The position numbers were made by a program, and so were the translations under genes. Below, piece after piece: positions 3,501 through 18,752 of a stretch of DNA of 39,157 nt. Source of the DNA: Flaviaesturariibacter aridisoli (GTDB lineage: Bacteria > Bacteroidota > Bacteroidia > Chitinophagales > Chitinophagaceae); the NCBI RefSeq assembly GCF_004343705.1, contig NZ_SKFH01000036.1, positions 1 to 39,157 of the forward strand. The letters are read 5' to 3'. Under the pieces are notes generated by a model. It was not told where the DNA came from. It searched no databases and worked only from the letters and a program-made list of their open reading frames with translations. Position 1 is the first letter of the stretch. Every line of letters begins with the position of its first letter.

Positions 3501-3980
3501 GGAGGCCTGCCCTACGATGCCCTGGAAAGCCTGCTCGATTCCATTCCGGCCCGGCAGAAGCTGCTGCTGATCGATGCCTGTCATTCGGGCGAAGTGGACA
3601 AAGAGGAAATGCAGCACTACGAGCAGGTGAAGAGCGCCCTTCCCGAGCTGAAAGGAATTCTCGTCAAGCCGAAAGACCCCGCACGCCTCGGGATGAAGAA
3701 TTCGTTCGAACTGATGCAGGAGCTCTTCGTAAACGTCGGGCGGAGCACGGGTGCCACCATCATCTCGGCAGCCGGCGGCCTGCAGTCGGCGCTGGAAAAG
3801 GGCGACCTGCAGAACGGCGTATTTACGTATGCGATCCTCGAATTTATGAGGCTACATGCCACCGCTACGATCAGTGCGTTGAAAGCTTATGTGAACCAAC
3901 GGGTGCCCGAGCTTACCAAAGGATTGCAGGTGCCCACGTCGCGGGCGGAGAACAAAGCCGTGGATTGGACCGTATGGTAA
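504..3980 (+). CDS. Exported WD40-repeat caspase-like protease
   Basis: The 1158-residue protein starts with a signal peptide (about residues 1-20, ending LRAQ), so it is probably exported. Residues ~25-690 hold about 15 WD40 repeats of ~42 residues (FSPDG ... WDAATG). That is enough for two seven-bladed propellers, with an irregular insert after repeat 4. A linker with the family-typical RYNRPDKVL phrase and an Ig-like segment follow. The C-terminal ~260 residues form a peptidase C14 caspase-like domain with the catalytic His in SGHG (~H976) and Cys in DACHSGE (~C1026). Both catalytic residues are present. The WD40 propellers probably act as a binding or regulatory platform; substrate and trigger are unknown. 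A TATCTTT box lies 5 bases before the ATG. The GAF gene follows after 53 bases without a terminator. Confidence 0.9.
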   Translation: MHTKLTALVFLLVCYCPLRAQEPRLMLPVGHTMEVNFATFSPDAKRVVTASEDNTAKLWDARTGTLLADLKGHSGPVGYVRFSPDGKWLVTASDDNTARVWNAAAGSPVALLEGHQTDVTYAAFSPDGKYVATVANDETTRIWEAATGRELHQLRSDMDEPVYAAFSNNGKQLLSATASGEVRLWEVATGRLQRALTGQPALSFLAAFNRGGVAAKPVPASAASTWKNKPVKLVSDFEGHVRQVNDGIFSPDGRRVARYTLGGVVELLELPSGAVHAELKGHDAAVRTIRFSPDGALVLTASQDSTVRLWDAATGAPRAVLRGYGGMVNGASFSPDGSQVLTWSEDRSVRIWDVKAARLVMTIKGHSPRIYTAHFTPDGKKLLQAVEDGSVKVVDAYSGQLLALWKGHAGPVSRLLLSADGSKAASIAGEDSIRVWNVASGQLLATLRGDVFGIAGAAFSPDGTRLAVATRTDSCKIWDIASASVVVDLKRGEETINSIAFSPDGRRLVTTSERERVARVWDAANGQPLFLLPGHDRGVNSAVFSPDGRQLATAGAHGVARTWDAATGALLHQLPVPEDNVYTIAFSPDGRTLLATFRDSSARLWDAATGALLADLSGHEKRVLSAVFSPDGRHILTASRDWTARVWDARTGAPLHTLAGHGDQLRSAEFSPDGTRIVTTAWDNATKLWNVSDGQLQFTYFGLDSADFLALTPGNYYHASPPAARLLHYVDARLAVISFEQLDVRYNRPDKVLEAAGSTDTALIRSYRKAYEKRIRKLGIDTSAFGAGGFGVPRADFAGRTAYGAEQRGNVLKLRISASDPSAALDRWNIWINESPLFGIRGLSLRGRGLRSFDTSVTVMLAAGKNRVETSVTNIRGTESYRSPLEVTSVPLVPPVARLYFAGIGINTFRDSAANLRYSVKDMRDLARALAARYGDRVVLDTLFDDRVSTAAVTALRKRLERTTVDDKVIVAFSGHGLLSSSYDYYLSTYNVNFAKPEEGGLPYDALESLLDSIPARQKLLLIDACHSGEVDKEEMQHYEQVKSALPELKGILVKPKDPARLGMKNSFELMQELFVNVGRSTGATIISAAGGLQSALEKGDLQNGVFTYAILEFMRLHATATISALKAYVNQRVPELTKGLQVPTSRAENKAVDWTVW

Positions 3981-4033
3981 CTCCAGGTCTTTGCGCTGGT
4001 TTTCGTACCTTACCGGTCCTCACCTTGTTTTCT

Positions 4034-4537
4034 ATGCCTCCTCCCGTAGTTTCCGTCATCCTCGAAGAAGCCCGCCACATGCACGAGCGCGGCGTGCTTC
4101 CGCACATCATCCTGGCCCACCTGGCCGAAGCCGCCGAGCTGCTCGCGCCCGCGGGCGACGCCGTGTCGTCGATCCTCATTCTGGACAAAGAAGGATTACT
4201 GCGCAACGGCGCCTCGCCGAAGCTGCCCTACGACTACCTCACCGCCATCGACGGGCTGAAGCCGAATGCCAACGTGGGCACCTGCGCCGCCGTGGCCGCC
4301 ACGGGCGAAATGATCGTGACGCCCGACTTTCACAGCGATAACAAGTGGGCCGAGCTGCGCCACCTGCCGCTGGCCCTCGGCTTCGTGGCCGCCTGGAGCT
4401 ACCCCATCAAAGATGCGAAGGGCGCGGTGCTGGGCACCTTCGGTACCTATTTTCGCACCCCCCGCGCACCCCTGCCCGGCGAGGTGGAAGGCGTGAAGGC
4501 GTTTGCGCAGCTGGCTGCGGAAGTGCTGCAGGCCTGA
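4034..4537 (+). CDS. Stand-alone GAF domain protein
   Basis: The 167-residue protein is almost entirely one GAF domain of the type usually found as a sensor in signalling proteins. The conserved stretch runs from NVGTCAAVAATGE (~80-92) through the WSYPI block (~121-125) to VLGTFGTYF (~132-140). The family phrase ACWS appears here as AAWS, and only one cysteine (C84) remains, so the multi-cysteine free methionine sulfoxide reductase role is unlikely. The ATG at 4034 is preferred over an upstream in-frame start at 3965, which lies inside the preceding gene and adds residues unlike the family. The short gap and missing terminator suggest co-transcription with the caspase-like gene. The ligand is unknown. 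Confidence 0.8.
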   Translation: MPPPVVSVILEEARHMHERGVLPHIILAHLAEAAELLAPAGDAVSSILILDKEGLLRNGASPKLPYDYLTAIDGLKPNANVGTCAAVAATGEMIVTPDFHSDNKWAELRHLPLALGFVAAWSYPIKDAKGAVLGTFGTYFRTPRAPLPGEVEGVKAFAQLAAEVLQA

Positions 4538-4544
4538 GCATTTT

Positions 4545-4560
4545 TTCCGTAATCACGGAA
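4545..4560. other. Palindrome between convergent genes
   Basis: A perfect TTCCGT-AATC-ACGGAA stem-loop sits between two convergent stop codons (4537 and 4564). It has no T-run after the stem on either strand, so it is not a canonical intrinsic terminator. It may still stop transcription in both directions. Confidence 0.4.
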
Positions 4561-4563
4561 GTA

Positions 4564-7500
4564 TTACCGCACATACAAGCCTGCCTCCGTCTTGCGCAGG
4601 GCTCCCAGTTCTACGAAGGTCTCCAGCAGGTTGCCGATGGCGCGGGCGCGGGCGCTGCGGGCGGGTCCCTTGAAGCAACGGTTCAGCTCGTCGGCGGATG
4701 CCGGGCCGCTTTGCTGTTGCAGGAGCCGCTTCAGGGCCGCCGCCTGTGCCGCCAGGCCCGAAGGCCATTCGGTTTCAGCGGAGGCTGCTAAAGGTCCGTC
4801 TGTCGTCGCTTCCGCTTTCGCTTCCACAGCCAGGCCGGCCTGTTGGCCACCCTGCGGCGCCTGGTACTCGGGCCGCAGCCAGCGCACGAGGCCGCGCGCT
4901 TCCTCGGCAGCGCGCTCCTTATTGAGCGCCACCAGCCGCTCCAGGATTTCTTCTTCCGGGAGATCGGCCGGCCAGCCGTAAGCTTCTGCCACGGCAGCAT
5001 CCAACTCGCGGTGGATTTGTAAAAGGGTCGTTACGAGCCCTTCCTCGTTGATCTTTTTATCCTTTGCCGTGAGCGCCGCGCCCGACTTCAGCTTCTCCAG
5101 CACGTTATACATATCGGTGATGGTCAGCGAGGGATGCTGCGCCTGCTGGCGCTTGCGGTGGGCGTCGAGTTGCTCGGCGAGATGACGTATAGCTTCTTTT
5201 TGAACGTCGGTGGCAGCAGGGAAAGGAAAGGTTTCGAAGCAGCGGGTCTTGTTGTAACGAGGGTCATTGCCCATGCCAAGGCGGCCGCCTGCGGCAAGCG
5301 CCCACAGAACATGAAATCTACTTGATAAAACACCCAACAAAAAAGCTTCATCGCTTGCAATGGCGACAAGCATATTGTCGGGTAGAATGGACTTATCCAG
5401 GAATGTGAAAAAGCGGTGCTTGGAGGTTTCTACAGTAACAATGTAGCGATCTAATTCTGATAACGCCTTTCTGAGCTCTCCACGCGTTTTTCCAAATAGC
5501 CACCAAGTTTTTGCATAGGAGGCACCGTCCTTCGTTTGAGCTTTAGCATCTCTCTCGGGTTTAACACGTTCAAGAACCCATTGGTATACGGATGGGAATT
5601 TTGATCGAATAGTTTCTTCCTGAAGCCCGAACAAGTCAATGACTAGTGCTTCTCTAGACTTACTGGTCAGATCCTTGCCATTTCTGTAGCCACGAATATG
5701 CTGACTTAGTGTTGGGTCTGAATGAATTCCTAAAAGAACTGCTTCATCTTGGGTCACAATAAAGCCGGCTCCGTGCAATTTCACGCCCGGACAACTGATT
5801 GATTCGTTGGCACGCAATTGTTTTGACTCCGATACTTCCGCACCAATGGTAAGGTCACCTTGTATCTTTCCTTGTTTCTCTTCAAATTGAACGCCTATTT
5901 CATCGCTGCTCGTTTTTGTTTCTTGGACTACATTAAGTAGCCGGCCATTTTGATCGCCTTTCTGCGCACAGGTCATGGCAATTCGAACCGCAGCGCCATC
6001 GGTAATGTCTACCCAAGGGTGATCGGGGATGGCCATCTTCAGCGACAGCATATTAGGCTCTTGCAAGGCATTCTCTATGATCCTGCGATTGAACGTTTGA
6101 CGAATGCTGTTGGTCGTAATAAATCCAAAGCTTTCCATCTTGCCATTCTTTGCGAGTTGGGCGGCTTTCTGCCACCAATACATCACGAAGTCGCTGCTGT
6201 CCGGCACTTCTCCTTTGTAAGCTTTGCGCAGCGATTCTGTATAGCCATCACCTAAGGCCTCCCGCATCCGCGAAGCCCCGATAAACGGCGGGTTCCCCAC
6301 GATAAAATCCGCTTCCGGCCATTCCGCCGGCTTCGGGTCTTTGTAATCATAAACAGGAATACGCGCCTCTTCATCCGGCACTTCCTTGCCGGTTACGGGG
6401 TGCGCCTTCGTGGTCACGCCGTCCCAGCGCGTTACCGGTTTGCCGTCGGCATCGTGGCGGGGCACCCGCTCGCGGTAGCTCAGTACGGCGTCTTGCTGTT
6501 TAATGTTCCCGTAGTTGCGCAGGATGGGATCCTGCAGCTTTTTCGCATGGCCGTGGGTGCGGAAGTGCCATTGCAGGTACCCGATCCAGAGCACCACGTC
6601 GGCGATGGCGGCGGCGCGCGGGTTCACCTCGAGGCCCAGGAGCTGCGCGGGCGTCACGGTGTAGCCGCCGGTCATGTCGAGGCGTATCTGGTCGCCTTCT
6701 TTGGCAAAGTGCCCCAGCCCTTCGAGCACCTCGCCCTCGAGGCGCTTCAGGTGCTCGAGCGTTACATAAAGAAAGTTGCCCGAGCCGCAGGCCGGGTCGA
6801 GCACGCGCACCGAGCAAAGGCGGCGGTGAAAGGCTTCGATCTCGCGGAGGGCGCCAGCGGCATCGCCTTCGTCTTCGAGGATTGCGGAGGCAGCGCGGGC
6901 CGCTTCCCATTCCTCGCGCAGGGGCTCGATCACGGTGGGCAGCACGAGGCGCTCCACGTAGGCGCGCGGCGTGTAGTGGGCGCCGAGCTTATGGCGCTCG
7001 CGGGGTTGCAGGGCCCGCTCCAGCAGGGTACCGAAGATGGCCGGCTCCACGTCGGCCCAGCTCGCCTCGGCGGCCTGCACCAGCAGGTCGAGCTGCGCAG
7101 CCGACAGGGGCAGCGCCTCCGTGTCTTTGAAGAGGAAGCCGTTGAACTGCGGGATGCGCGTGCGCAGGGCCGCGTCGAAGCCGCCGCGGTCCATATTGTT
7201 CCACAGCGCCTGCAAGGCGTCGGGCAGGTGCTCGAGGCCCGTGCGGTAATCCTGCAGCAGCTTTGTGAACGATCGCTCGGGCAGCAGCTCCACGTCTTCG
7301 GCAAACATGGTAAAGAGGCAGCGCATCAGGAAGCCCGCGACCTTTTCGGGTGCGTGGCCGGAAGCCTCGAGGAGGGCCGCCAGTTTGGCGAGGCGTTCTG
7401 CGAGCGCCCGCGTAACGCGCGCCGAGCGCTTACCCGGGTCGAGTTCCAGCGGGTCGGTGAACAGCAGGCGCAGCCGCTCGCGCACGGCTTCTTCGTTGAG

Positions 7501-8061
7501 GTCGTCGAGGAAGAGGCGGTAGTGCTGCGGGTCGGGGAAGGGCACGTAGGTCTTGCCCTGCCGGCTGAAGTCCGAGTAGAGGTCGATGCAGTAACCCACG
7601 TCCACCACCACCAGGAAGGGGGGCCAGCCGTCGGCTGTGGGCAGTGAGCGGGCGTAGCGGAGGGCCTGCTCTTTGGCGCGGCCCATTTCGCGCTCCCAGC
7701 CGCGCGTGTTGCGCACAGCCGTGCCGGTCTTGGTTTTTTCGCGCGCGCCGCCCAGCAGCTCGGCCTCCGTAGGCCCATTGCGGTCGGAACCCTGCTTCGC
7801 TTCCAGCACGAAGCAGTGGCGCTTATAGAGGTCGATGAAGTTCGTGCTCGTTTTGCCGGCACCATCGTCGAAAACAACGGGGCGCTCGAAGTTGTAGGTA
7901 GCCTCGGCTACTTTGTCGGTGGCTGGGCGCGGCTTTTCCACGCCGAGCAAGTCACAGAGCTCGGTGAGAAACAGTTGGTAGTTGGCGCGCTCCGATGCGC
8001 CGGAACCCTTCCAGCGGGTAATGAAAGCGTCAGGGGTAAGCAGGGACGTACTGGTAGACAT
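4564..8061 (-). CDS. MmeI-like Type IIL restriction-modification enzyme
   Basis: The 1165-residue protein has the layout of MmeI-family single-chain restriction-modification enzymes. The N-terminal nuclease domain shows D77-X9-E87-X-K89 (within FIDLYKRHCFVLEAKQ), the MmeI-type catalytic pattern. A helical spacer follows (~200-400), then an adenine N6-methyltransferase core with motif I DPACGSG (422-428) and motif IV NPPF (590-593). A target-recognition region and a helical C-terminus come next, with an extra tail of about 150 residues after ~1010. Such enzymes cut at a distance from their site and methylate one strand for self-protection, so no partner gene is needed and none is adjacent. Bases ~5290-6250 (residues ~604-923) are about 45% G+C, against over 65% in the rest. 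All catalytic motifs look intact. Confidence 0.88.
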   Translation of the reverse strand: MSTSTSLLTPDAFITRWKGSGASERANYQLFLTELCDLLGVEKPRPATDKVAEATYNFERPVVFDDGAGKTSTNFIDLYKRHCFVLEAKQGSDRNGPTEAELLGGAREKTKTGTAVRNTRGWEREMGRAKEQALRYARSLPTADGWPPFLVVVDVGYCIDLYSDFSRQGKTYVPFPDPQHYRLFLDDLNEEAVRERLRLLFTDPLELDPGKRSARVTRALAERLAKLAALLEASGHAPEKVAGFLMRCLFTMFAEDVELLPERSFTKLLQDYRTGLEHLPDALQALWNNMDRGGFDAALRTRIPQFNGFLFKDTEALPLSAAQLDLLVQAAEASWADVEPAIFGTLLERALQPRERHKLGAHYTPRAYVERLVLPTVIEPLREEWEAARAASAILEDEGDAAGALREIEAFHRRLCSVRVLDPACGSGNFLYVTLEHLKRLEGEVLEGLGHFAKEGDQIRLDMTGGYTVTPAQLLGLEVNPRAAAIADVVLWIGYLQWHFRTHGHAKKLQDPILRNYGNIKQQDAVLSYRERVPRHDADGKPVTRWDGVTTKAHPVTGKEVPDEEARIPVYDYKDPKPAEWPEADFIVGNPPFIGASRMREALGDGYTESLRKAYKGEVPDSSDFVMYWWQKAAQLAKNGKMESFGFITTNSIRQTFNRRIIENALQEPNMLSLKMAIPDHPWVDITDGAAVRIAMTCAQKGDQNGRLLNVVQETKTSSDEIGVQFEEKQGKIQGDLTIGAEVSESKQLRANESISCPGVKLHGAGFIVTQDEAVLLGIHSDPTLSQHIRGYRNGKDLTSKSREALVIDLFGLQEETIRSKFPSVYQWVLERVKPERDAKAQTKDGASYAKTWWLFGKTRGELRKALSELDRYIVTVETSKHRFFTFLDKSILPDNMLVAIASDEAFLLGVLSSRFHVLWALAAGGRLGMGNDPRYNKTRCFETFPFPAATDVQKEAIRHLAEQLDAHRKRQQAQHPSLTITDMYNVLEKLKSGAALTAKDKKINEEGLVTTLLQIHRELDAAVAEAYGWPADLPEEEILERLVALNKERAAEEARGLVRWLRPEYQAPQGGQQAGLAVEAKAEATTDGPLAASAETEWPSGLAAQAAALKRLLQQQSGPASADELNRCFKGPARSARARAIGNLLETFVELGALRKTEAGLYVR

Positions 8062-8091
8062 GCGTTGGGAATTGGGAAAGCAAAATAGCAG

Positions 8092-8200
8092 GAAAAGTCG
8101 GAAGTGGGGTAAGGAAGTGAGTAAGTCGGAAGTGGGAAGTCGGAAGCGTACGCATAGTTCCCCTTCCCTTTGGGAAGGGGTTAGGGGATGGGTCTTTTCG
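8092..8200. repeat. Low-complexity GTCGGAAGTGG words and hairpin
   Basis: The leader of the restriction gene carries GTCGGAAGTGG-type words (for example 8097-8106, 8128-8137 and 8138-8147), a family that recurs at 12125-12155, 17607-17627 and 28746. A CCCCTTCCC/GGGAAGGGG hairpin lies at about 8160-8180. No gene is visible. Confidence 0.6.
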
Positions 8201-8211
8201 GGGATGGGCCG

Positions 8212-8236
8212 AAAAAAGCCTCCCTGCTGGGGAGGC
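8212..8236 (-). terminator. Intrinsic terminator of the 8259-8951 gene
   Basis: On the minus strand a GCCTCCC/GGGAGGC stem with a 5-base loop (8218-8236) is followed by six T (8217-8212). It lies 22 bases after the stop of the helical protein gene and separates that gene from the restriction enzyme gene. Confidence 0.8.
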
Positions 8237-8258
8237 TTTTCTCAGGGCATGCGGCGCG

Positions 8259-8951
8259 TTACGCATTCGGCGTCACGCCGGCCGGGTCTCCTTTCCGCGC
8301 GCCCACATTGTCGATGTGCCGCACGGCGAAATATTTCTTCACGAAATCGGGGTGTCGTTCTTCGAGGTTGCGCAGCATCGGGTCGATGCGTTCTTTGAGC
8401 AGCTTGTCGGTGGCGGAGAAGAGGGCTTCGATCTTTTCCACTTCCAGGCTCTTGTCGGCGCGGCCCAGTTTCGGGGCGGGTGAAAGCTCGCGGAAGCGGG
8501 CCGTGAGGGCATCGTGTGCCGTGAGCTGGTCGTCGCTAAGACCCGCGCGTCTCAGGCCGGTTTCATGGGTACGAGCGAGGGCCACGATGGAGTCGACCAC
8601 CGAGGGCAGGCGTCCGTCACGGGTTCGCTCCAGCATGCTTTGCGAATAGGGGCGCAGCAGGGCGGCGAGCGCTTCGTCGCCCTTCGTGCTGGCCTCCACG
8701 CGGAGCAGGCCCACGAGGCGCATGCAGGAAGTGGCTACTTGTTTCTTCGCCGTTTTCTTTTCGGCGGCCGTGCCGGCGCCGGCGGCTACTTTGCGGCCGC
8801 AGGCTTCTTCAATGAGCTCCATGTTTTCCTGGAGCTTGTCCTGCGCCTCATCGAGGGCTTCGATCCCCGACACGATGGAGCTGTGTTCGGTGAGCACATC
8901 GTCGGCGGCTTCAAACGTGTTGAATTTGGGTTCCTGACGTTCGGTCATCAT
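8259..8951 (-). CDS. Unrecognised helical protein, 230 residues
   Basis: I do not recognise the family. The protein has no signal peptide, no membrane segment and no known catalytic motif. It is rich in Ala, Leu, Glu and Lys and should be almost entirely alpha-helical. It has a Lys/Ala-rich loop (~55-72), a helical middle, and a conserved-looking C-terminus (HPDFVKKYFAVRHIDNVG, ~205-222) followed by a short polar tail. Two adjacent ATG codons (8951 and 8948) could start it. The gene has its own terminator, so it is probably a single-gene unit. Its upstream side faces the gene-free 21-bp repeat array. Codon use matches the neighbours, which supports it as a real gene. Confidence 0.75.
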   Translation of the reverse strand: MMTERQEPKFNTFEAADDVLTEHSSIVSGIEALDEAQDKLQENMELIEEACGRKVAAGAGTAAEKKTAKKQVATSCMRLVGLLRVEASTKGDEALAALLRPYSQSMLERTRDGRLPSVVDSIVALARTHETGLRRAGLSDDQLTAHDALTARFRELSPAPKLGRADKSLEVEKIEALFSATDKLLKERIDPMLRNLEERHPDFVKKYFAVRHIDNVGARKGDPAGVTPNA

Positions 8952-9170
8952 AATTGAATATTTAGGGGTGAGTAAATCAATTATTGGAAAGGAACGGACC
9001 GGCGTCTTTGCAGAGGTTAGGTGAAAGCTCTTCCGAATTTAATCCTTCCCGGGCAGTTGCGCAAGCTTTGGGCGTGGAAAAATGCAAAGCCCCGCCGGAA
9101 TATCCCGGAAGTGCATACATCTGAATAGGTTACATATTATGTCGCTCATTTATACGGTGCTGTTTTTTGA

Positions 9171-9569
9171 CATTACGGCGCTTCACTTGGCCATTACGGC
9201 AGTGTCGTTGGCGGTTACCGAGCTGCGTCCCTTCATTACGGAGCTGCACTTTGCCGTTACGACGCAGCCTCCGGCCATTACGTCGCTGCGCCCGTTCATT
9301 ACGGCATTGCCTCCGGGAATTACGGCGCTGCGTCCCGTCATGACGGTGTTGCGTCCCGACATTACGCTACCGTCGCCGGACATTACTTTGCTGCGCCTGG
9401 CCGCTACGATGTTGCGTCCAGTTATTACGTTGCTGCTTGTGGTTGTTACGAAACGGCACGTGCTCATTACAGACCTGCCGATGGCCGTTACGGCATTGTA
9501 CTCCTTGGTGCCAGCATCGCGTTTCTTCATCGCCATGCAGGTCGCCTTCATTTCGTACCGCACCCGGAA
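9171..9569. repeat. Tandem array of ~19 degenerate 21-bp units
   Basis: Sixteen consecutive units keep an exact 21-base period from 9171 to 9506 with no insertion or deletion, and three more decayed units run to 9569. Each unit begins with a CATTACG-like core (exact or nearly so in most; variants CGTTACG, CATGACG, TATTACG). Many also share a GCTGCGTCCC-like second block. Because 21 is a multiple of three, frames on both strands stay open: a plus frame from the ATG at 9139 would read x-I-T-x-L-R-P heptads. This does not prove a protein. Third codon positions of the core (ATT ACG) are no more variable than first and second positions, so conservation looks nucleotide-level. 21 bases is two helical turns, which puts every core on the same face of the DNA. 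Confidence 0.85.
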
Positions 9570-9592
9570 GCAACATTTCAAATCTTACATAT

Positions 9593-10501
9593 GATATCTG
9601 AGATCTGAGAGGCTGTCTGAAATTAGTTCTTTGAAAATGCATTGGTAGCGAACCGTCCCATCGGGACGGCCTGTTGGTAGCTCCCGCCGCTGCGGGACAG
9701 GCTCCGGGTGAAACCCTATCGTGTGGACACAATTTGGTAGGCAAGACCGCGCCCGTAGAGGGCGCCATATCGGTAGCCGGCAGGCGCAGCCTGCCGGTAA
9801 ACGGCGGTACGGTAACGATGCGCCCCGAAGGGGCGCCATATCGGTTCCGGGGTCCGAGGCTCGGACCGAAGGTCAACGGGGAGCTGCCACCCCCGATGAG
9901 CGGGGCCAATTGGCCGGCCGGGAAGCGTCATTCCGCCGCCCGGCTGCGCCGGACGTAATACAGATGGCGCCCTGAAAGGGCGCGTTGTTCCTGCTTTTAA
10001 CCTGTTCCGGCGGGCAAAGCCCGCCGGCTACCAGGATGGCACCGCTTCGCGGCGCTGACGATTCCAAAGTAGTTTAATTTGTGTCCACACGATAGGGTGA
10101 AACCCGGGGTCCAGGATAGCCCCACCCGCTTCTGCGCTCCGAAGGAGCGCCGTGCTGCCGTCTTTTGAAGGGGCAGAGCGCCTTTTTTTGGGAGCAGGAG
10201 ACACACGGCACCACTTCGTGGTGCATCCACACGCTGACTCCTGCTCCCCCGGGCTTGCGCCCGGGGCCAGTAACACGGTGCTCCTTCGGAGCATTGATTT
10301 ACACCTCCTTATTGGATTGGAACATCAGGGAAGAAAAAGGCATGGCCAGGAAATGTGTCCGCACGATCGGGTTGCACCCGGGGCTAAGACATTCCGCTCC
10401 TGACAGAGCAGTTTGGTATCGATAGGCCACCTCTTCGAGGCGGTAAGCACCATCGGTAATAACCCATTTAATTTTAGACAGCCTCTGAAATCTGAGATCT
10501 G
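9593..10501. mobile_element. Candidate non-autonomous element packed with hairpins
   Basis: AGAGGCTGTCT at 9608-9618 is matched by its reverse complement at 10476-10486. Both arms continue inward with AAATTA-like sequence. Immediately outside lie near-identical 15-base direct repeats (9593-9607 and 10487-10501, 14 of 15 the same). Read differently, the ends form a ~28-base inverted repeat with four mismatches. Inside there is no credible gene but about 15 short perfect hairpins with 6-7 bp stems, such as CCGTCCC/GGGACGG at 9653-9669 and GCGCCC/GGGCGC at 9749-9765. Several are followed by ATATCGGTAG or TTGGTAGC. A motif with core GTGTCCACACGATAGGG occurs three times, once inverted. This resembles a MITE or insertion-sequence relic carrying a REP-like hairpin array; the assignment is inference. 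Confidence 0.5.
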
Positions 10502-10518
10502 AAATCTGGGATCCCACA

Positions 10519-11784
10519 TCAATACCCATACTTATCCCCCCACCGGCTCTTCAGAAACCTCCTGAGTTCTTCCTCCCGCGGTGTCTTGCCCGGCGTATAA
10601 AACGCTTTGCCTTTCAGTTCGTCCGGCAGGAATTCCTGCTCGGTAAAGTTCTGGTCGTAGTCGTGGGCATACTTGTAGCCCTTGCCGTAGCCCATGCGCT
10701 TCATCAGGCCGGTGGGCGCGTTGCGCACGTGCAGCGGCACGGGCAGGTCGCCCTTGTCCTGCACGGTCCAGATCGCGTCTTCGATGGCCTTATAGGAGGC
10801 GTTGCTTTTGTGCGAGGAGGCGAGGTAGGTGCAGCACTGCGCCAGGATGATGCGGCTCTCGGGGTAGCCGATCTTGTTCACGGCGTCGAAGCAGGCGTTG
10901 GCGAGCACGAGCGCCGTGGGGTTGGCGTTGCCGATGTCTTCGGCCGCGAAGATCACCATGCGGCGGGCGATGAACTTCACGTCCTCGCCGCCCTCGATCA
11001 TGCGGGCCAGCCAGTAGATGGCGCCGTTGGGGTCGGAGCCGCGCATGCTTTTGATGAAGGCCGAGATGATGTCGTAGTGCTGCTCGCCGCTTTTGTCATA
11101 CAGCGCGATGCGCTGCTGCGCCACTTCCATTACGGCCGCGTCGGTGATCACGAGCGGGTCCACATCCTGCAGCGCATCCACCACGAGCTCGAAGAGGTTG
11201 AGCAGCTTGCGGGCGTCGCCGCCGGAGATGCTGAGGAGCGCTTCGGTCTCCCGTAGTTCTACGGCCTTGCCCCGGAGCCATTCGTCGCGTTCGAGTGCCT
11301 GGTGGAGCAGGCCCACGAGGTCTTCGGGGGCGAGCGACTTCAGTACGTATACCTGGCAGCGGCTGAGGAGGGCCGAGTTCACCTCGAAGGAGGGATTCTC
11401 GGTGGTGGCGCCGATGAGGGTCACGGTGCCTTTTTCCACGGCGCCGAGGAGCGCGTCCTGCTGGCTTTTATTGAAGCGGTGGATCTCGTCGATGAACAGC
11501 ACGGCGCCGGTGAGCTTCTGCGCCTGGGCGATCACGTCGCGCACTTCCTTGACGCCCGACGAGATGGCGCTGAGCTGGAAGAAGGGTACGTTGAGCGTAT
11601 GGGCGATGATGTGGGCGATGGTGGTCTTGCCCGTGCCCGGCGGGCCCCAGAGGATCATCGAGGGGATCTTGCCGTGCCCGATCGCCGTGCGCAGGATCGA
11701 GCCTGGACCCGTCAGGTGCTGCTGGCCGGCGAGGTCTTCCAGCGATTCGGGACGCATGCGTTCTGCAAGAGGTGCCGTGGTCAT
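10519..11784 (-). CDS. Replication-associated recombination protein A (AAA+ ATPase)
   Basis: The 421-residue protein is a full-length RarA/MgsA, the bacterial relative of yeast Mgs1 and human WRNIP1. It is a homotetrameric AAA+ ATPase that acts on single-stranded DNA ends at stalled replication forks. The N-terminal domain carries Walker A GPPGTGKT (47-54) and Walker B VLFIDEIH (95-102), with the sensor region in the IGATTENPSFEVN stretch. The C-terminal half has the family-typical RGSDPNGAIYWLARM and the ARRMVIFAAEDIGNANP block. The ATG at 11784 agrees with the family's start. A TAATTTG box ends only 4 bases before it. The stop lies 17 bases from the adjacent repeat element. Confidence 0.96.
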   Translation of the reverse strand: MTTAPLAERMRPESLEDLAGQQHLTGPGSILRTAIGHGKIPSMILWGPPGTGKTTIAHIIAHTLNVPFFQLSAISSGVKEVRDVIAQAQKLTGAVLFIDEIHRFNKSQQDALLGAVEKGTVTLIGATTENPSFEVNSALLSRCQVYVLKSLAPEDLVGLLHQALERDEWLRGKAVELRETEALLSISGGDARKLLNLFELVVDALQDVDPLVITDAAVMEVAQQRIALYDKSGEQHYDIISAFIKSMRGSDPNGAIYWLARMIEGGEDVKFIARRMVIFAAEDIGNANPTALVLANACFDAVNKIGYPESRIILAQCCTYLASSHKSNASYKAIEDAIWTVQDKGDLPVPLHVRNAPTGLMKRMGYGKGYKYAHDYDQNFTEQEFLPDELKGKAFYTPGKTPREEELRRFLKSRWGDKYGY

Positions 11785-11819
11785 GCGGCAAATTACTAAA
11801 AGACCAAGCCAGGGGGAGA

Positions 11820-11900
11820 TGTCTGATCTCGGATTTCGGATTTCAGATTTTTGATGTGGGATGTAGGAGGTGTGATGTGTGATGTAGGATGTAGGATGTC
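11820..11900. repeat. Low-complexity ATCTC/GATTTC and GATGTAGG words
   Basis: The leader of rarA contains short near-tandem words: GATCTCGGATTTCGGATTTCAG-type sequence, then GATGTAGGATGTAGGATG-type sequence. The first kind recurs at 9593-9607 and 10487-10505. No gene is visible. Confidence 0.6.
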
Positions 11901-11930
11901 GAAAGTGCAGGAGGCTGTGACGCCCTTGGC

Positions 11931-12096
11931 GTCATTGCGAGCGCAGCGAAGCAAACTCCTCCGTTACGCAAGCTCCTTCCACCAATAAGAAGTTTTCGAT
12001 TGAAAGGTCTTCTTACTGGGAACAGCTCTCAGGTTGTGGAGGTTGCTTCGTTTCACTCGCAATGACCCCGCCAGAGGCGGGGTCGCTGGCGCCAGC
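11931..12096. repeat. 166-bp inverted-repeat element, copy A
   Basis: The element begins GTCATTGCGAGCGCAGCGAA and near its right side has the complementary arm ending CTCGCAATGAC. A CCCCGCC/GGCGGGG hairpin and GCTGGCGCCAGC follow. Both end regions are nearly identical to copy B at 13108-13272, in the same orientation, while the centre differs. Arms of about 29 bases and a variable centre suggest a MITE-like or structured repeat. Confidence 0.75.
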
Positions 12097-12100
12097 TTTG

Positions 12101-12155
12101 CCGATTCCCGATTCCCGATTCCCGATTCCCACTTCCGACTTCCGACTTCCGACTT
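12101..12155. repeat. GATTCCC and ACTTCCG short tandem words
   Basis: Four near-exact CCGATTC-type units are followed by three ACTTCCG units just after the end of the DUF4846 gene. The second word is the complement of the GTCGGAAGTGG family seen near other genes. Confidence 0.7.
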
Positions 12156-12170
12156 TAATACTTCCTTCGC

Positions 12171-13010
12171 TCACCACGTTCTCAGCTCGGTCGCCTTGAA
12201 ATCCCATTCCGGCGTTTCCAGTACCGGGCCGAACCGGTTGCTGTACCACGGGTTGCCGTCGGCATTCGCCTCGTTCTTCAGCACCTGGATGTCCTGCGCG
12301 GGCATGTAGCTCTGCGCGAGGAGAAAGCGCTTTTCGCCGGCGGCGTTTGTCACTACGTCTACCACGATCACGGCATGGCCGGGCGAGCCGCCGCGGATGA
12401 ACACGTCGCCGATGGCGAGGTCGGCCAGGGGTCGCGGCTTCAGGCTGGCCGAGAGCGACAGGGTGCCGGCGTAGGTGAACACGAGGTCGAGGTATGCGCG
12501 GAAGGAGGCGTAGGAGTCGTCGCGGGTATCGTATAACTTCCAGTAGGGGTGGCCGTTGCGGATCCCGATGCGTTCGCCGTGGCGCCAGCGCCGGAAGTCG
12601 GCGCGAAAGCCGTCGGACAGGCGGAAGGAGATCTCGTCTTTACGGCCGGCGCCCCAGAGCCACTCGGCGCGGAGGCGCATCACCGCATCGGCGCACTGCT
12701 GCAGGTCGCGGGTGCCTACGTCGAGGTCCACCACGGCGGCGTATACGTTGGCGGGTTTCTCCACGCCGTTGTAATAGTGCACGCGGGCGCCCGCCGGCTT
12801 CAGCGGCAGGCGGCGCAGGTAGGCGGCGAAGGAGCCGGCGGCTGCCGGCTGGCGGGTAAAACCCGGGGGCGGGGCGAAGCGGGATTCGATCGTGTTGCCG
12901 GATGTTGCCTGCGCGGTTGCAGGGGCGTTATCGGAGGGATTCTTGCCTGCGGAAAGCGCGCAGGAAAACAGGAGCAAGCTTCCCAGCAGAAAGGGGATCG
13001 CAGCGGTCAT
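12171..13010 (-). CDS. DUF4846 lipoprotein
   Basis: The 279-residue protein starts at the ATG at 13010 with a lipoprotein signal (hydrophobic core FLLGSLLLFSC, lipidated Cys ~C17). An open frame extends upstream, but that extension only translates repeat sequence. The mature part matches the DUF4846 family: RFAPPPGFTR, YLRRLPLKP, VDLDVGTRDLQQCADAVMRLRAEWLW, a SFRLSDG block, and near the end GDVFIRGGSPGHAVIVVDV and AQSYMPAQDIQVLKN. GSPGHAVIVVD recalls a Cys/His hydrolase fold, but catalysis is not established. It is probably membrane-anchored and faces the periplasm or the cell surface. Two copies of a ~165-bp repeat flank it, so it may be a recombination cassette. Confidence 0.82.
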   Translation of the reverse strand: MTAAIPFLLGSLLLFSCALSAGKNPSDNAPATAQATSGNTIESRFAPPPGFTRQPAAAGSFAAYLRRLPLKPAGARVHYYNGVEKPANVYAAVVDLDVGTRDLQQCADAVMRLRAEWLWGAGRKDEISFRLSDGFRADFRRWRHGERIGIRNGHPYWKLYDTRDDSYASFRAYLDLVFTYAGTLSLSASLKPRPLADLAIGDVFIRGGSPGHAVIVVDVVTNAAGEKRFLLAQSYMPAQDIQVLKNEANADGNPWYSNRFGPVLETPEWDFKATELRTW

Positions 13011-13107
13011 GCGGTGTGGTTTCCCGGTTAGATGCGGGAAGGGTAAAATTCCATAAGGATTGAGCTTGCACCCGATGTTGAAACTGTGGGATTGACGGGC
13101 AATGCCC

Positions 13108-13272
13108 GTCATTGCGAGCGCAGCGAAGCAAACTCCTCCGTTACGCAGGCGACACCCACCTTGAAGCGTTTCGAATCGAAGTTGCTCCCAAATGGGACCA
13201 GCTTTCAGGTTGTGGAGTTTGCTTCGCTTCGCTCGCAATGACCCCGCCGCTGGCGGGGTCGCTGGCGCCAGC
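13108..13272. repeat. 165-bp inverted-repeat element, copy B
   Basis: This copy has the same ends as copy A (11931-12096) in the same orientation. The left arm begins GTCATTGCGAGCGCAGCGAA, the right arm ends CTCGCAATGAC, and a CCCCGCC/GGCGGGG hairpin and GCTGGCGCCAGC follow. Only the ~60-base centre differs clearly. It lies between the esterase stop and the DUF4846 start. Confidence 0.75.
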
Positions 13273-13274
13273 AA

Positions 13275-13328
13275 CCTTCAAAACCTTCAAAACCTTCAAA
13301 ACCTTCAAAACCTTCAAAACCTTCAAAA
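13275..13328. repeat. Six exact copies of a 9-bp repeat
   Basis: CCTTCAAAA is repeated six times without a mismatch, with a partial seventh copy to 13332. It abuts copy B and lies 16 bases beyond the stop of the esterase gene, so it is outside the coding sequence. Confidence 0.95.
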
Positions 13329-13343
13329 CCTTTTCTTGCCTCC

Positions 13344-14216
13344 CTACCGCACCCGCTCCTTCAGCCAGGTGGCCATCGAATCGAGCGACTTCCGCAGGGT
13401 GGAATCGGCGTACACGTGTTTTTCGCCGGGGTAGAACAGGTAGCTGGTCGGCACGTTGTTGGCCTGCAGGCGTGCCTGCAAGGCGTCGGTTTGCGCGTAG
13501 GGCACTACCGAGTCGAGCATGCCCTGCACGAGGAAGCTCGGGATCGTATGCAGGCCCACGAAGGTCTGGGGGCTCGACTCCTGGTACAGGGTTGCGTTGC
13601 TCACCGGCGAGCCGCCGAGGAGTTGCTGCAGGCGCCATTGGCCGGGGGTGGATTGGTAGTTGTAAAAGTCGGGGAGGTCGGAGGGGCCGGAGAAGGCGGC
13701 GACGGCCTGGATGGCCACGGGGTTGGCGCGCTTGTAGCTATGCAGCAGGGCCAGTTGGCCGCCGGTGCTCCAGCCGGCCAGCACAAAGCGGTCGGAGAGG
13801 TGCCAGTTGACGCGGTTCCGGTAAAGGTAGTTGATCGCCACCTGCAGGTCGGTTTCCTGTGCCGGGAAGGCATTGACCGGAGGGGTTTTGTTGAGGCGGT
13901 AGTTGACGTTGGCGATGGCCCAGTTGGGGAGGGCGGCGCGCAGCTGGCTGACCCAGCCGCGGAGGTCGCGCTTGTCGCCGGAAGCCCAGAGTTCGCCGTC
14001 GCCGCCGTGGAGGAGGAGGAGCACCGGGGTGCTGTCCACGTTGCGGCCGGTGGGCAGGTACAGATCCAGCCGGGTGGCCGTATCGGTATCGTACGACAGG
14101 TTCATCAGGCTGTCGGCCGGCAGGGGCGGATTGTTCCAGGGATCGGTGGTATCGCGGGTGGTACAGGCCGTTACCAGCACCAGGGCCGCCACCGCGGCCT
14201 TCAGCATCTTCGTCAT
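13344..14216 (-). CDS. Lipoprotein alpha/beta-hydrolase (esterase), first of a pair
   Basis: The 290-residue protein has a lipoprotein signal with lipobox LVTAC (Cys18). The rest is an alpha/beta-hydrolase of the BD-FAE/carboxylesterase type: oxyanion HGG (70-72), NVNYRL, nucleophile elbow GWSTGG with Ser150, then the likely acid Asp in QGMLDSVVPY and His in GEKHVY. The third oxyanion residue is Asp rather than Gly (HGGD), which departs from the common HGGG. It probably hydrolyses esters in the periplasm or at the cell surface; the substrate is unknown. The paralogous gene upstream ends only 30 bases away, so the two are likely one transcript. Confidence 0.85.
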   Translation of the reverse strand: MTKMLKAAVAALVLVTACTTRDTTDPWNNPPLPADSLMNLSYDTDTATRLDLYLPTGRNVDSTPVLLLLHGGDGELWASGDKRDLRGWVSQLRAALPNWAIANVNYRLNKTPPVNAFPAQETDLQVAINYLYRNRVNWHLSDRFVLAGWSTGGQLALLHSYKRANPVAIQAVAAFSGPSDLPDFYNYQSTPGQWRLQQLLGGSPVSNATLYQESSPQTFVGLHTIPSFLVQGMLDSVVPYAQTDALQARLQANNVPTSYLFYPGEKHVYADSTLRKSLDSMATWLKERVR

Positions 14217-14246
14217 AGCGTCAGTTGGTAGCCGAAAGTACGCCTT

Positions 14247-15104
14247 TTAGGGTACATGCCGCTCCAGGAAGCGCTGGACCGTATCAAAGGAGCGATGAAG
14301 CGTGGTTCCCTGCCAGCCGTGCCGCGCGGAGGGAAAGAGCACGAGCTGGTGGGCCACGCCGGAAGCTTCCAGGCGCTCGGCCAGGGCGCGCGACTGGTCG
14401 GGGTGCACCACGTTGTCGGCGCCCCCCTGCAGGATGAGGGTCGGCGGATTCTGCGGGCGCACAAACGCCAGCGGGCTGGCGGCACGGTAAGCCTCCGGTG
14501 CCTCGCGGTACGTTTTCCCGATCACCGTCTGCAGTGCCAGCGGCACCAGCGGGTGCCAGGGTTTTTCGGCCATCCGCACCAGGTCGGTGGGACCGAAGAA
14601 GTCCACCACGGCCCGCACCGAGGGGTGGGGATGCTTGTAGGCCTGGAGCAGGGCCAGGTGCGCCCCGGCGGAGGCGCCGAGCAGCACCACCCGGCCGGTG
14701 TCGATCCCGTAGCGGGCGGCGCCGGCCTGTACGAAGCGCAGGGCCGCGGCCACGTCGGCTTCCTGCTGGGGCAGCAGCGTGCCCCTGCCGTTCACCAGGC
14801 GGTAGTTGATGTTGAAAAAAGCGTAGCCGGGCATCCGGCGGCGGAAGTCTTCGATATAGGCATTGAACTCCGACTTGTTGCCCCCGCTCCAGCCGCCGCC
14901 GTGCACGAGCAGCATCACGGGCGTCGACTGCCGGTCGCGCCCGGCGGGCAGGTATACGTCCATGCGCTGGGCGCTGTCGGTGCCATAGGCGACGTTGTAA
15001 AATGTATAGCCAAGCTGCCGGCTGAGGGCCGGCTCTTTGCTCTGGCCCTGCTGGCAGGAGGGGAATAAAATCATGGCGGTTATGACGGTTAGGATGCTGC
15101 GCAT
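14247..15104 (-). CDS. Lipoprotein alpha/beta-hydrolase (esterase), second of a pair
   Basis: The ATG at 15104 gives a 285-residue lipoprotein (lipobox LFPSC, Cys17). An upstream open extension has no signal-peptide logic. Oxyanion motif HGGG (68-71), NINYRL, nucleophile elbow GASAG with Ser145, the Asp in QGGADNVVHP and the His in ARHGWQG complete the catalytic set of a BD-FAE/acetyl-esterase-like enzyme. It is a paralogue of the downstream gene, with the same order of motifs and similar phrases (YDTD/YGTD, LDLYLP/MDVYLP). A role in removing acyl groups from carbohydrates would fit the lifestyle, but no glycan locus is next to it. Confidence 0.87.
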   Translation of the reverse strand: MRSILTVITAMILFPSCQQGQSKEPALSRQLGYTFYNVAYGTDSAQRMDVYLPAGRDRQSTPVMLLVHGGGWSGGNKSEFNAYIEDFRRRMPGYAFFNINYRLVNGRGTLLPQQEADVAAALRFVQAGAARYGIDTGRVVLLGASAGAHLALLQAYKHPHPSVRAVVDFFGPTDLVRMAEKPWHPLVPLALQTVIGKTYREAPEAYRAASPLAFVRPQNPPTLILQGGADNVVHPDQSRALAERLEASGVAHQLVLFPSARHGWQGTTLHRSFDTVQRFLERHVP

Positions 15105-15276
15105 TGGTTGTTGAAACAGCAGCAAGTTGCATGCCCCGATGCGAGAAGATTTCGTTAACAGGAGGACTTTATTTTCACCGTCCCCCAACCCTTTTTGCCG
15201 CGGCACAGTATATGTCGGTATGAAGCGCCAGCGACCCCTGTTGCCCGGGGCATTTTCCGGGCTAAACCTGTCCCAG

Positions 15277-15447
15277 ATGCAGTACGAAGAAGAACGCCGC
15301 AACGAGCTGCTTGCCGGCCTGCTGTACCGGCTGCTCGGCCTCGGCATCGGCCTGCTGCTGGCGGCGGGTTTAATTGCCGGATTGTATGAAACGTATCGCA
15401 CGGATCCCCCGGAAAACCTGCCGGCCACAGCCGACGGCGGGCGCTAA
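15277..15447 (+). CDS. Small single-pass membrane protein
   Basis: A 56-residue protein starts MQYEEERRNELLAG, followed by one hydrophobic helix (about residues 17-39, LGLGIGLLLAAGLIAGLY) and a short polar, Pro-rich tail. The family is not recognised. An in-frame ATG at 15220 would add 19 residues that look less protein-like. The gene diverges from the esterase pair. Its size makes it uncertain, but the charged-hydrophobic-polar layout is typical of real small membrane proteins. Confidence 0.5.
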   Translation: MQYEEERRNELLAGLLYRLLGLGIGLLLAAGLIAGLYETYRTDPPENLPATADGGR

Positions 15448-15494
15448 CGAAGCGCCAGGCCTTTTGCACGGGCGCTCCCGAAGCTCCTCAGTTC

Positions 15495-15633
15495 GTCATT
15501 GCTAGGGCTGGAGCGCAGCGCAAGCCCGAAGCCTGTCCGACCTCCGGGCGGGCAATTTCACCCTCGTTGGGGCTGCTTCCCATTGGCTGCGGACGGGCCG
15601 TGTAGCAGATTGCTTCGCTACGCTCGCAATGAC
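15495..15633. repeat. Diverged copy C of the inverted-repeat family
   Basis: The left arm GTCATTGCTAG is degraded and the right arm GCTACGCTCGCAATGAC is well preserved. A further short TCGCAATGACG copy follows at about 15650. The surrounding 15448-15735 has no gene. Its last part has a GTCGTCGTGCCGTCGTGCCGT-like run. Confidence 0.6.
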
Positions 15634-15735
15634 GGACGAAGTAGTGGCTCGCAATGACGCATTATCGTAGCGTCGTCGTGCCGTCGTGCCGTTGTGACCG
15701 AAGGCTGCCTGCAGCCGCCGCTTTTCAGAAACTTT

Positions 15736-17586
15736 TTACGCCGTTGGGTCGAGTTTGATCTGCAGCTCGCGGAATTGCTTTTCGTCGATCTCCGAAGGTG
15801 CGTCGAGCATCACGTCGCGGCCGCTGTTGTTTTTCGGGAAGGCAATAAAGTCGCGGATGCTTTCCGAGCCGCCGAGCAACGCGCACAGGCGGTCGAAACC
15901 GAAGGCGATGCCGCCGTGCGGGGGCGCACCGTACTCGAAGGCGCCGAGCAGGAAGCCGAACTTGTGGCGGGCTTCTTCTTCGCTCATGCCGAGGGCCGCG
16001 AACATTTTTTCCTGCAGCTGCCGCTGGAAGATCCGGATGGAGCCGCCGCCGATCTCGTTGCCGTTGAGCACCATGTCATAAGCGTTCGCCTTGATGCCCG
16101 AATAGGGGTGCTCCAGGTATTTTTCGGGGTTGTCGATGGCGGGGTTGTTGTCGATCATCGTCTGGATCTGGTCGGGCTTCGGCGCGGTGAAGGGGTGGTG
16201 GCGCGCTACCCAGCGGCCGCTCCCGCCCGAAGCGGGATCTTCTTCTTCGGCGTATTCAAACAACGGGAAGTCGAGCACCCACAGGAGCTTGAATTCGTCT
16301 TTCCGGCGCAGTCCGAGGCGCTCGCCCAACTCCATACGCAGGTCGGAGATCGCCTTGCGCGTGCGCTCTTCGGCGCCGGCCAGTATCAATACCAGGTCGC
16401 CCGGCTGCGCACCCGCCGCATGGGCGATGGCCTTGAGGCGATCTTCGCTATAGAACTTGTCTACGGAGCTCTTGTAGCTGCCGTCGGCGTTGCACTTGAT
16501 GAACACGAGTCCTTTCATCCCGATCTGCGGACGCTTTACCCACTCGGTGAGCTCGTCGGTCTGCTTGCGGGTGAATTCCGCGGCGCCGGGTACGGCAATG
16601 GCCAGCACGGTTTCGGCCTCATCAAATACCTTGAAGTCGGCACCGTTCACGAGTTCACCCGTGGCTTCCAGCACGCCGTTGCGGCGGAAGGCCGACTTCA
16701 GGTTGGCGAGCTTCATGCCGAAGCGGATGTCGGGCTTGTCGTTGCCGTAGGTCCACATCGCTTCTTCCCAGGTGGTGCGCTCCACGGCTTCGCTGTAGTC
16801 GATGCCTTTCACTTCCTTGAAAATGTATTTGACCAGACCTTCAAACATGTTGAGGATGTCTTCCTGCTCCACGAAGGCCATCTCGCAGTCGATCTGGGTG
16901 AACTCGGGTTGGCGGTCGGCGCGCAGGTCTTCATCGCGGAAGCACTTCACGATCTGGTAGTAGCGGTCGTAGCCGCTCACCATCAGCAGTTGCTTGAAGG
17001 TCTGCGGGCTTTGGGGGAGAGCGTAAAACTGGCCGGGGTTCATCCGCGAGGGCACCACGAAGTCGCGGGCGCCTTCGGGTGTCGACTTGATGAGAAAGGG
17101 CGTTTCGATGTCCATGAACCCATGGCCGTGCAGGTAGTCGCGGGTGGCGCGGTTCACGGCGTAGCGGAGCTCGATGTTTTTCTTCACCGCATTGCGGCGC
17201 AGGTCGAGGTAGCGGTATTTCATGCGCAGCTCGTCGCCGCCGTCGGTATCGTCCTGGATGGTGAAGGGCGGCACGGCGCTGCGGTTCAGGATCAGGAACG
17301 ACGCGATGGTCAGCTCGATGTCGCCGGTGGGGAGGTTTGGGTTCTTGTTGGTGCGCTCGGTGACGGTGCCCGTGGCCTGCAGCACGTATTCGCGGCCCAG
17401 GGGGTCGGCTTCGAGCTGCGGGTTCAGTTCTTCGTTGAAGTACAATTGCGTGATGCCGTAGCGGTCGCGCAGGTCCACGAAGGTGATCGAGCCGAATTTG
17501 CGGATGCTTTGCACCCACCCGGCGAGGGTCACTTGGGTGCCGGCTTGAGCGAGGCGGATTTCGCCGCAGGTATGAGAACGGAACAT
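15736..17586 (-). CDS. Aspartyl-tRNA synthetase
   Basis: The 616-residue protein is a full-length bacterial class II aspartyl-tRNA synthetase that attaches Asp to tRNA-Asp. An OB-fold anticodon-binding domain comes first ([22 protein letters not shown]). Motif 2 follows in [19 protein letters not shown], then the bacterial GAD-type insertion (~300-430), and motif 3 in [15 protein letters not shown]. The ATG at 17586 gives the usual MFRSHTCGE start; an upstream TTG at 17595 is less likely. A TATCTTTG box ends 6 bases before the ATG. Asp versus Asp/Asn specificity cannot be settled here. Confidence 0.97.
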
Positions 17587-17592
17587 AGGCGC

Positions 17593-17600
17593 CAAAGATA
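17593..17600 (-). promoter_or_regulatory. -7-like box of aspS
   Basis: TATCTTTG on the minus strand matches the Bacteroidota -7 consensus TAnnTTTG exactly. It lies 6 bases from the aspS ATG, so the transcript would start at or very near the start codon. No clear TTTG lies 19 bases further up; that region is made of GTCGGAAGTGG repeat words. Confidence 0.4.
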
Positions 17601-17637
17601 AGTGCGAAGTCGGAAGTGGGAAGTCGGAACGTGCGCA

Positions 17638-18696: not shown

Positions 18697-18726
18697 GCCG
18701 GGAAAGTACGGCGTTCCCTGAGAGGA

Positions 18727-18752
18727 GAGAAAGAACCCCGCCTTTTGCGGGG
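18727..18752 (-). terminator. Probable terminator after the alpha-2-macroglobulin gene
   Basis: A CCCCGC/GCGGGG stem with a CTTTT loop (18736-18752) is followed on the minus strand by TTCTTTCTC. It lies about 190 bases past the alpha-2-macroglobulin stop and before the next gene's start. The T-run is interrupted, so it is rated moderate. Confidence 0.45.

Follow-up and report, generated by a model that had tools for sequence, protein, structure and literature searches.

A probable set of nested, gene-less mobile elements built of REP-like hairpins, with an IS5-type MITE outside, in the genome of Flaviaesturariibacter aridisoli

One close described counterpart of the locus analysed here is the REP/REPIN system and its TnpA-REP (RAYT) protein, in which short GC-rich hairpins with GTAG are disposed in inverted pairs beside a Y1 gene (REPINs being paired REPs; PMC3116915). 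The motifs DHxH, WQ and YxxxQxxHH mark TnpA-Y1 subclass 1.2, for which Table 1 of the 2018 survey has 'no' under REP (PMC6006769); no paper tying subclass 1.2 to REPs was found in the open-licence literature. TIRtrons, which carry a Y1 gene (TIRYT) between terminal inverted repeats and whose end repeats are dispersed in genomes, have these inverted repeats in place of REPs, and the motif GGGGWSAS is common in them (PMC3733652); 20 of 26 TIRYTs are of subclass 2.1 (PMC6006769). REPs also serve as targets: IS1397, ISKpn1, ISPsy8 and ISPpu9 insert inside REP palindromes, and insertion sequences of the IS3, IS110, IS4, IS256 and IS5 families are reported to target REPs (PMC1525189). IS5-family MITEs share their ends with an IS5-family insertion sequence (IS) of the same genome, are flanked by TNA duplications, lack a transposase and are present in several copies. 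Elements of the IS200/IS605 group, to our knowledge, have no terminal inverted repeats and make no target duplication.

The DNA in question, referred to as the window, is a whole stretch of 39,157 nucleotides from the 4.37-Mb draft genome (84 contigs) of F. aridisoli. (Labels such as C1, C5 and C10, with or without the prefix G000:, denote contigs of this genome; L-numbers denote loci fetched from other genomes.) An intergenic block at 9593-10501 contains an element of 877 bp (9609-10485) that begins 33 nt past the stop codon of a rarA/mgsA-like gene for an AAA+ ATPase, so named by reading its sequence. The element is gene-less, as a first-pass annotation had stated; the open reading frames that can be drawn in it, as predicted frames only, do not exceed 94 amino acids. 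The annotation had counted about 15 perfect hairpins. The array is real, and the number of non-overlapping perfect hairpins (stem of at least 6, loop of 3-9) is 12, against a mean of 1.4 and a maximum of 5 in 200 dinucleotide shuffles; imperfect hairpins, for example 10427-10443, are also present. Folding, a check proposed at that stage, gives z = -12.0 for 9609-10485 as single-stranded DNA relative to 20 shuffles. The words ATATCGGTAG and TTGGTAGC, said to follow several of the hairpins, do so at stems 9653-9669 and 9749-9765, where GGTA begins 6 nt past the stem, and are absent from most of the twelve. The rest of the window also has short perfect hairpins, 0-6 of them per 909 nt, which is what chance palindromes in GC-rich DNA, joined by a chance inverted repeat, would look like; set against the shuffles, against the 47 BLAST matches of the block in its own genome (itself included) and against the matches of an independently built covariance model (R1, described below), this explanation is already refuted and retains next to no probability. 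When a plasmid collection was searched with window 1-20000, three records were returned, matching at a methyltransferase gene only.

The inverted repeat reported to bound the block is genuine and extends to 17 nt with one mismatch, as GAGGCTGTCTGAAATTA at 9609-9625 on the forward strand and TAATTTTAGACAGCCTC at 10469-10485 on the reverse strand. The end sequence AGAGGCTGTCTGAAA is found at 32 sites in the genome at up to two mismatches, compared with 3 for its reversed control. Five complete copies of an element with these ends (designated MITE-A), each of 310-331 bp and without a transposase, lie elsewhere in the genome (on C6, C7, which has two, C14 and C59), so that the earlier call for other copies was answered within the genome itself. 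Target duplications of the TNA type are identical in 5 of the 6 complete copies, the window's included, and read TAG/TAA in the sixth; this count leaves out the incomplete or rearranged copies at C1, C4/C67, C16 and C6:61182. A DDE transposase with matching ends, also proposed as a thing to look for, is encoded by a complete IS of 881 bp at C10:2-882, whose ends, GAGGCTGTCTAAAATTA and ...TTTAGACAGCCTC, match those of MITE-A; its 251-residue transposase scores 181.9 bits with the IS5-family model NF033580 (cut-off 110) and contains the Pfam domains DDE_Tnp_1 and DUF4096. The copies of the IS sit at contig edges, and no target duplication is visible for them for that reason. The complete copies, together with an IS5-family IS that has the same ends, identify the shell, on the basis of sequence, as an IS5-type MITE, which would have been moved by the IS5 transposase in trans.

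In one respect the shell departs from the IS5-family MITE pattern: its interior is not a deleted IS; it consists of REP-like units of an unrelated Y1 transposase, and further elements are nested in the hairpins. In the shorter copies the core of MITE-A is preserved whole and consists of two REP-like units in inverted orientation. In the window the left unit (9653-9697, forward strand) has the form hairpin - N6 - GGTAG - hairpin, and the right one is represented by a hairpin with one mispair at 10427-10443 on the reverse strand, recognised by reading the sequence and by comparison with the intact copies. The placement of GGTAG 6 nt after the first stem is unlike what is seen in REP/RAYT systems. 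Full-length MITE-A was found in none of 97 other genomes; counting its own, 6 of the 98 genomes searched gave matches, those in the other five being pieces of 22-68 nt only. The contig ends C4:203343 and C67:1 overlap within one hairpin cluster and are probably one nested element split by assembly.

MITE-A lies in a repeat of the heptamer ATCTGAA/ATCTGAG (window 9589-9608 and 10483-10513), into which it appears to have inserted downstream of the rarA/mgsA-like gene with duplication of TGA (9606-9608 and 10486-10488). With up to two mismatches allowed, a 20-mer of the heptamer repeat matches 42 sites in the genome, the window's two included, and its reversed control none. Of eight cuts tried, removal of the element together with one TGA best restores the heptamer phase (21/25; the next best gives 19). 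The direct repeat of 15 bases that was seen to hug the block is thus real as a repeat and was rejected as a target duplication: it is part of the heptamer repeat, and only TGA is duplicated. These features bear on the idea that a REP-like cluster formed in place and acquired its IS5 ends through separate IS insertions and deletions, the block as such never having moved. At 877 bp the interior is indeed far longer than copies of 310-331 bp and has clearly been reworked; yet the five complete copies share ends, have cores that align and lie between short TNA duplications, identical in four, and the TGA duplication of the window restores the heptamer phase. Formation in place is, in our estimation, improbable.

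A structured array transcribed downstream of rarA, and selected for a role as RNA in termination or mRNA stabilisation, is a different proposition. The distance of 33 nt from the rarA-like stop codon, the strong fold and some compensatory changes in the stems (see below) speak in its favour. Against it, Rfam has no family at gathering score in window 9000-11000, the weak matches below that score, to Chlorobi-1 (E 0.064) and Hammerhead_1 (E 0.13), being both far below it; pieces of the block recur at many other places; and BLAST finds nothing like the block after rarA in the loci fetched from 17 relatives of the same genus, three of which were also read by eye with the same outcome. (The comparison was extended to at most 1.5 kb beyond the gene, and nothing in these 17 rarA loci matches the window to the left of 10514; the empty site that one might hope to find in relatives was not encountered there.) Selection for an RNA role is accordingly rated quite unlikely as the origin of the block, which may nonetheless act on transcripts as hairpin-rich 3' sequence.

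Inside the MITE lies an element of a second type, designated B. The complete copy, B2, occupies 9717-10094, is gene-less, has the ends TATCGTGTGGACAC and GTGTCCACACGATA, and is placed between two forward-strand copies of the palindrome GGGTGAAACCC (9706-9716 and 10095-10105); most of its length is taken up by a cluster of REP-like hairpins (9749-10055). Adjoining it, at 10106-10368, is B1, the remnant of another B insertion, which has lost its left end and retains its right end, TGTGTCCGCACGATC, at 10354-10368, followed by GGGTTGCACCC; a second REP-like hairpin cluster lies in B1 at 10134-10293. Ends of the same type are found on C1, C4, C26, C31 and C67. Window 10100-10366 is 95% identical to C26:28458-28723, where the B copy has a diverged right end and GGCAGCCGGGC on both sides. 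The C1 copy is bordered on both sides by GGGTGCAACCC and the C4 copy by GGACTAAAGTCC, each a palindrome with a short loop. The B copies of this genome that have both ends (window, C1 and C4) are surrounded by direct repeats of 11-12 bp that equal the palindrome, and the lone right ends (window 10368, C31 and C67) abut palindromes in three cases out of three. Judging from these palindromic direct repeats, B inserts into hairpins and duplicates them. By letters the direct repeats are 11-12 bp long; B may begin with CC and end with GG, and for this reason the true duplication may be 7-8 bp. The proposal of a non-autonomous mobile unit accordingly stands as far as copies, a same-genome DDE transposase with matching ends, target duplications and some compensatory stem changes (see below) go, and gives way in that the block is not one unit: it is a nest, in which at least two B elements, one complete and one without its left end, would have inserted into palindromes of the host element.

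Insertion inside a palindrome is what B has in common with the REP-targeting IS; it differs from them in being gene-less here and in carrying, elsewhere, a Y1 gene along with hairpin units of its own. Among 294 genomes of the family, 17 (this one included) have B-like ends at no more than one mismatch; in several of the 17 the single one-mismatch matches look like chance, because their flanks, inspected by eye, contain no palindrome. A Y1 gene is present at B ends in 7 of 18 regions, which come from six genomes, three times between two ends and four times inward of a lone end. The most informative of these is L291:2394-3174, a complete B of 781 bp with hairpin pairs on both sides and an intact Y1 gene of 148 codons between its ends. 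L286 and L292 are two-ended elements with a partial and a degraded Y1 gene, respectively. At four loci the gene lies 138-220 nt inward of a lone end; it is intact at L284, degraded at L294 and truncated by the contig end at L290 and L293. Because a complete B with an intact Y1 gene exists in another genome of the family, the window's B copies most plausibly descend from Y1-carrying elements by loss of the gene. (Two elements with B ends, L281:1682-2401 and L282:1746-2451 (G291), are about 0.7 kb long, have no Y1 gene and contain only one or two hairpins.)

For B the nearest idea in print is the TIRtron, which B at L291 resembles in having a Y1 gene between terminal inverted repeats, an arrangement not seen in the outer shell, and in having end repeats that are dispersed in genomes. 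In contrast with TIRtrons (PMC3733652), it has hairpin units in addition to outer inverted repeats, its end TATCGTGTGGACAC lacks GGGGWSAS, and its Y1 protein is of subclass 1.2. B is likewise set apart from IS200/IS605 elements by its inverted ends and direct target repeats.

Which enzyme moves B is a separate matter. We know of no target duplication by Y1 enzymes that move single strands, and a different enzyme may move B for that reason. It could be a palindrome-targeting DDE transposase, with the Y1 gene and the REP units as passengers. Such an enzyme would suit inverted ends and direct repeats of a palindromic target, which are as in DDE elements, and the 5 of 8 two-ended B elements in other genomes that have no Y1 gene (L280, L281, L282, L287 and L296); several IS families, moreover, are reported to target REPs (PMC1525189). 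On the other hand, the mobile-element gene that is repeatedly found with B, in those 7 of 18 regions, is the Y1 gene, no DDE transposase was recognised by reading the longest open reading frames listed inward of 11 B ends, and tblastn with queries that included the IS5 transposase of F. aridisoli gave no match. Movement of B by a DDE enzyme is a serious alternative, to which we give somewhat less than an even chance.

The genome of F. aridisoli has seven Y1 genes of the IS200-like type (PF01797), on C5, C10, C11, C12, C24, C25 and C39. They are divergent paralogues (36-50% identity to the first) and not copies of one IS, which distinguishes them from IS200/IS605 elements even though the proteins belong to the same superfamily (PF01797; 3 of the 4 tested score above the cut-off of the IS200 model NF033573). 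All seven proteins have the DHxH and WQ motifs, and YxxxQxxHH is found in six, the C24 protein having YxxxQxxQH; at about 150 residues they bear, as assigned by motifs, the signature of TnpA-Y1 subclass 1.2, in contrast with the class-2 Y-motif, which ends in NP. Their identification as RAYTs was considered and rejected, the four proteins tested falling under the RAYT cut-off (24-38 bits with model NF047646, cut-off 80).

Each kind of hairpin in the nest has its counterpart at one of these genes. When cores were compared with the flanks of the Y1 loci (with the C24 locus trimmed to roughly 1 kb of flank on either side, so as to leave out a dispersed copy 2.3 kb from the gene), the core of the MITE-A copy C7a matched only the flanks of the C5 locus, the B2 core matched C11 best (E 1e-31; next locus 5.5e-4) and the B1 core matched C25 best (E 1e-10; next locus 5e-3). 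Three cores thus correspond one to one with three Y1 loci, and three control stretches of 20 kb give nothing. The link to C5 rests on the intact MITE-A copies because the window's own A segments match little: the left one has no match at threshold and the right one an 18-nt match to C5. Repeats of at least four of the seven paralogues (C5, C11, C25 and C39, with C12, C10 and C24 left out) are also found elsewhere in the genome, the C39 type being dispersed to C8, C18, C2, C1 and C47. (The C39-flank repeat also forms tandem arrays with a spacing of about 71 nt, at C8:37047-37489 and C18:75515-75779.)

Some of the stems appear to change in compensation, on few sequences, which is a partial answer to the question, raised at first pass, of whether they do. 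In eight C11-type clusters (seven from this genome, the eighth from L150), one helix has three pairs that are changed on both sides. The seven both-side-changed cells, and the score, were reached by none of 500 shuffles, and the count of three changed pairs was reached by 98 of 500; in helix 4, one pair is unpaired in 5 of 7. The nine A-type hairpins compared show both-side changes at two pairs, an outcome reached by 5 of 500 shuffles. (The contig of L150, labelled as a gammaproteobacterial MAG, has similar hairpins, encodes a Y1 protein that shares 86% identity with the C11 protein, and is probably misbinned.)

The association of hairpins with Y1 genes is not peculiar to this genome. In the best 80 of 535 loci of related Y1 genes, which are mostly labelled Bacteroidota, the density of hairpins with stems of at least 7 is 2.02 per kb in the first 400 nt from the gene, falls to 0.65 between 400 and 800 nt and is 0.39-0.49 farther out; shuffled sequence has 0.28-0.37 per kb, and the 400 nt next to rarA genes have 0.48. 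GGTA follows 45 of 298 near-gene stem ends of these best 80 loci, at an offset of 6 in 25 of the 45, and 4 of 194 beyond 1 kb. GTAG units number 67 within 700 nt of the gene (106,699 nt), in 33 of the best 80 of 535 loci, the other 47 having none within that distance. Sequence more than 1 kb away holds a single unit in 221,438 nt, and the 22,400 nt taken from beside 16 rarA genes hold none; the stretch from 700 to 1000 nt is skipped in this count. Inverted matches between the two flanks with scores of at least 18 occur at 20 of 71 loci, and direct matches between the flanks at 19 of 71; for the inverted ones the comparison values are 2 of 349 pairs taken across loci and 0 of 68 distal pairs. 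(In the hairpin-density, GGTA, inverted-flank and unit counts, the gene end was set at position 2950 for most loci, where the matches end at 2887-2953.) Rfam, applied to 20 of the 80 loci, recognised only two cobalamin riboswitches and a tRNA. Under a strict definition of the unit as a hairpin with GTAG, there is one in the block, one in the rest of the window and one in one of three 20-kb control stretches.

The covariance model R1 was built from 28 units, none of them from the genome of F. aridisoli. (What this means in practice is that 28 of 37 units entered alignment A4, from which L170, L181 and L198, near duplicates, and L192, L200, L207, L208, L226 and L229, which fit poorly, were left out by hand; only perfect hairpins that had GTAG or ATAG were admitted as rows, so that the covariation of A4 is inflated and was not used as proof.) The model was applied to the C24 locus and to 29 Y1 loci from relatives, all 29 lacking a megablast match to any of the 80 loci. 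At E of 0.1 or less, 16 of the 29 were matched, which breaks down into 15 of the 18 loci given first and 1 of the 11 given last; the C24 locus was missed, and so were all 16 rarA control loci. The last 11 include short, weakly scoring Y1 matches, and some of them may, as assigned without a tree, belong to other subclasses.

Within the window, R1 matches only 9653-9684 (24.2 bits, E 3.7e-4) and 9821-9845 (E 0.027), both inside the block. Its other matches in 21 sources from the same genome are nine MITE-A copies or remnants and the flanks of C5, and 60 kb of control stretches of that genome gave nothing. The match at the flanks of C11 is weak (E 0.22), and at E of 1 or less there is none at the flanks of C12, C25, C39, C10 and C24, whose repeats would either have diverged from the R1 unit or differ from it. 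Dispersal of the repeat was also looked for in another genome, that of L182 (labelled Mucilaginibacter), with six matches, two at the locus itself and four weak ones elsewhere. (Y1 genes of the same kind with similar flanking hairpins occur at L227, labelled Verrucomicrobiota, and L197, labelled candidate division KSB1, which suggests transfer between phyla or misbinning.)

The block can thus be thought of, with good though not complete confidence, as mobile elements that lack genes, consist of REP-like hairpins and are nested in one another, with an IS5-ended MITE outside, B insertions inside and cognate Y1 proteins encoded elsewhere in the genome. The core of the shell would be an inverted pair of REP-like units of the kind that flanks the C5 gene. 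Each Y1 protein would recognise and cut its own hairpin-GTAG units in single-stranded DNA, somewhat as TnpA-REP does, and so spread them, and the IS5-type and B-type ends would allow packages of such units to move whole. What appears to be new is the tie of TnpA-Y1 subclass 1.2 to a REP-like unit of its own, and the packaging of such units in two kinds of inverted-repeat shell, both as read from sequence comparison. Taken further, subclass 1.2 may constitute a second, independent REP-making system (hairpin - N6 - GGTAG, often with a second hairpin) of Bacteroidota and a few other phyla, with repeats packaged twice, by IS5 ends and by B ends, and packages movable by two unrelated chemistries; with each new package inserting into hairpins of an older one, the arrays would grow by nesting. 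This wider proposal is tentative, and in our judgement rather more apt to fail than to hold.

A group of proteins described without REPs or IS properties would gain, in the DNA beside its genes, a probable substrate, so that a direct test in vitro is possible. REP-like repeats would have a route away from their Y1 gene, as cargo of ordinary DDE-type elements, and insertion into hairpins would be a way of building large gene-less hairpin arrays between genes. R1 is a simple tool with which to search for these repeats across Bacteroidota.

Repetitive sequence of other kinds is also present in the window. A degenerate tandem repeat of 21 bp (TTACGGCGCTGCGTCCCGTCA, 7.2 copies, 9215-9366) ends about 240 nt to the left of the block, within a frame that is open over 9082-9594, and a perfect 9-bp tandem repeat, AACCTTCAA, is present in 6.7 copies at 13273-13332. 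Two sets of open reading frames, at 26461-27713 and 37861-39138, look like IS3-type elements by reading of their translations.
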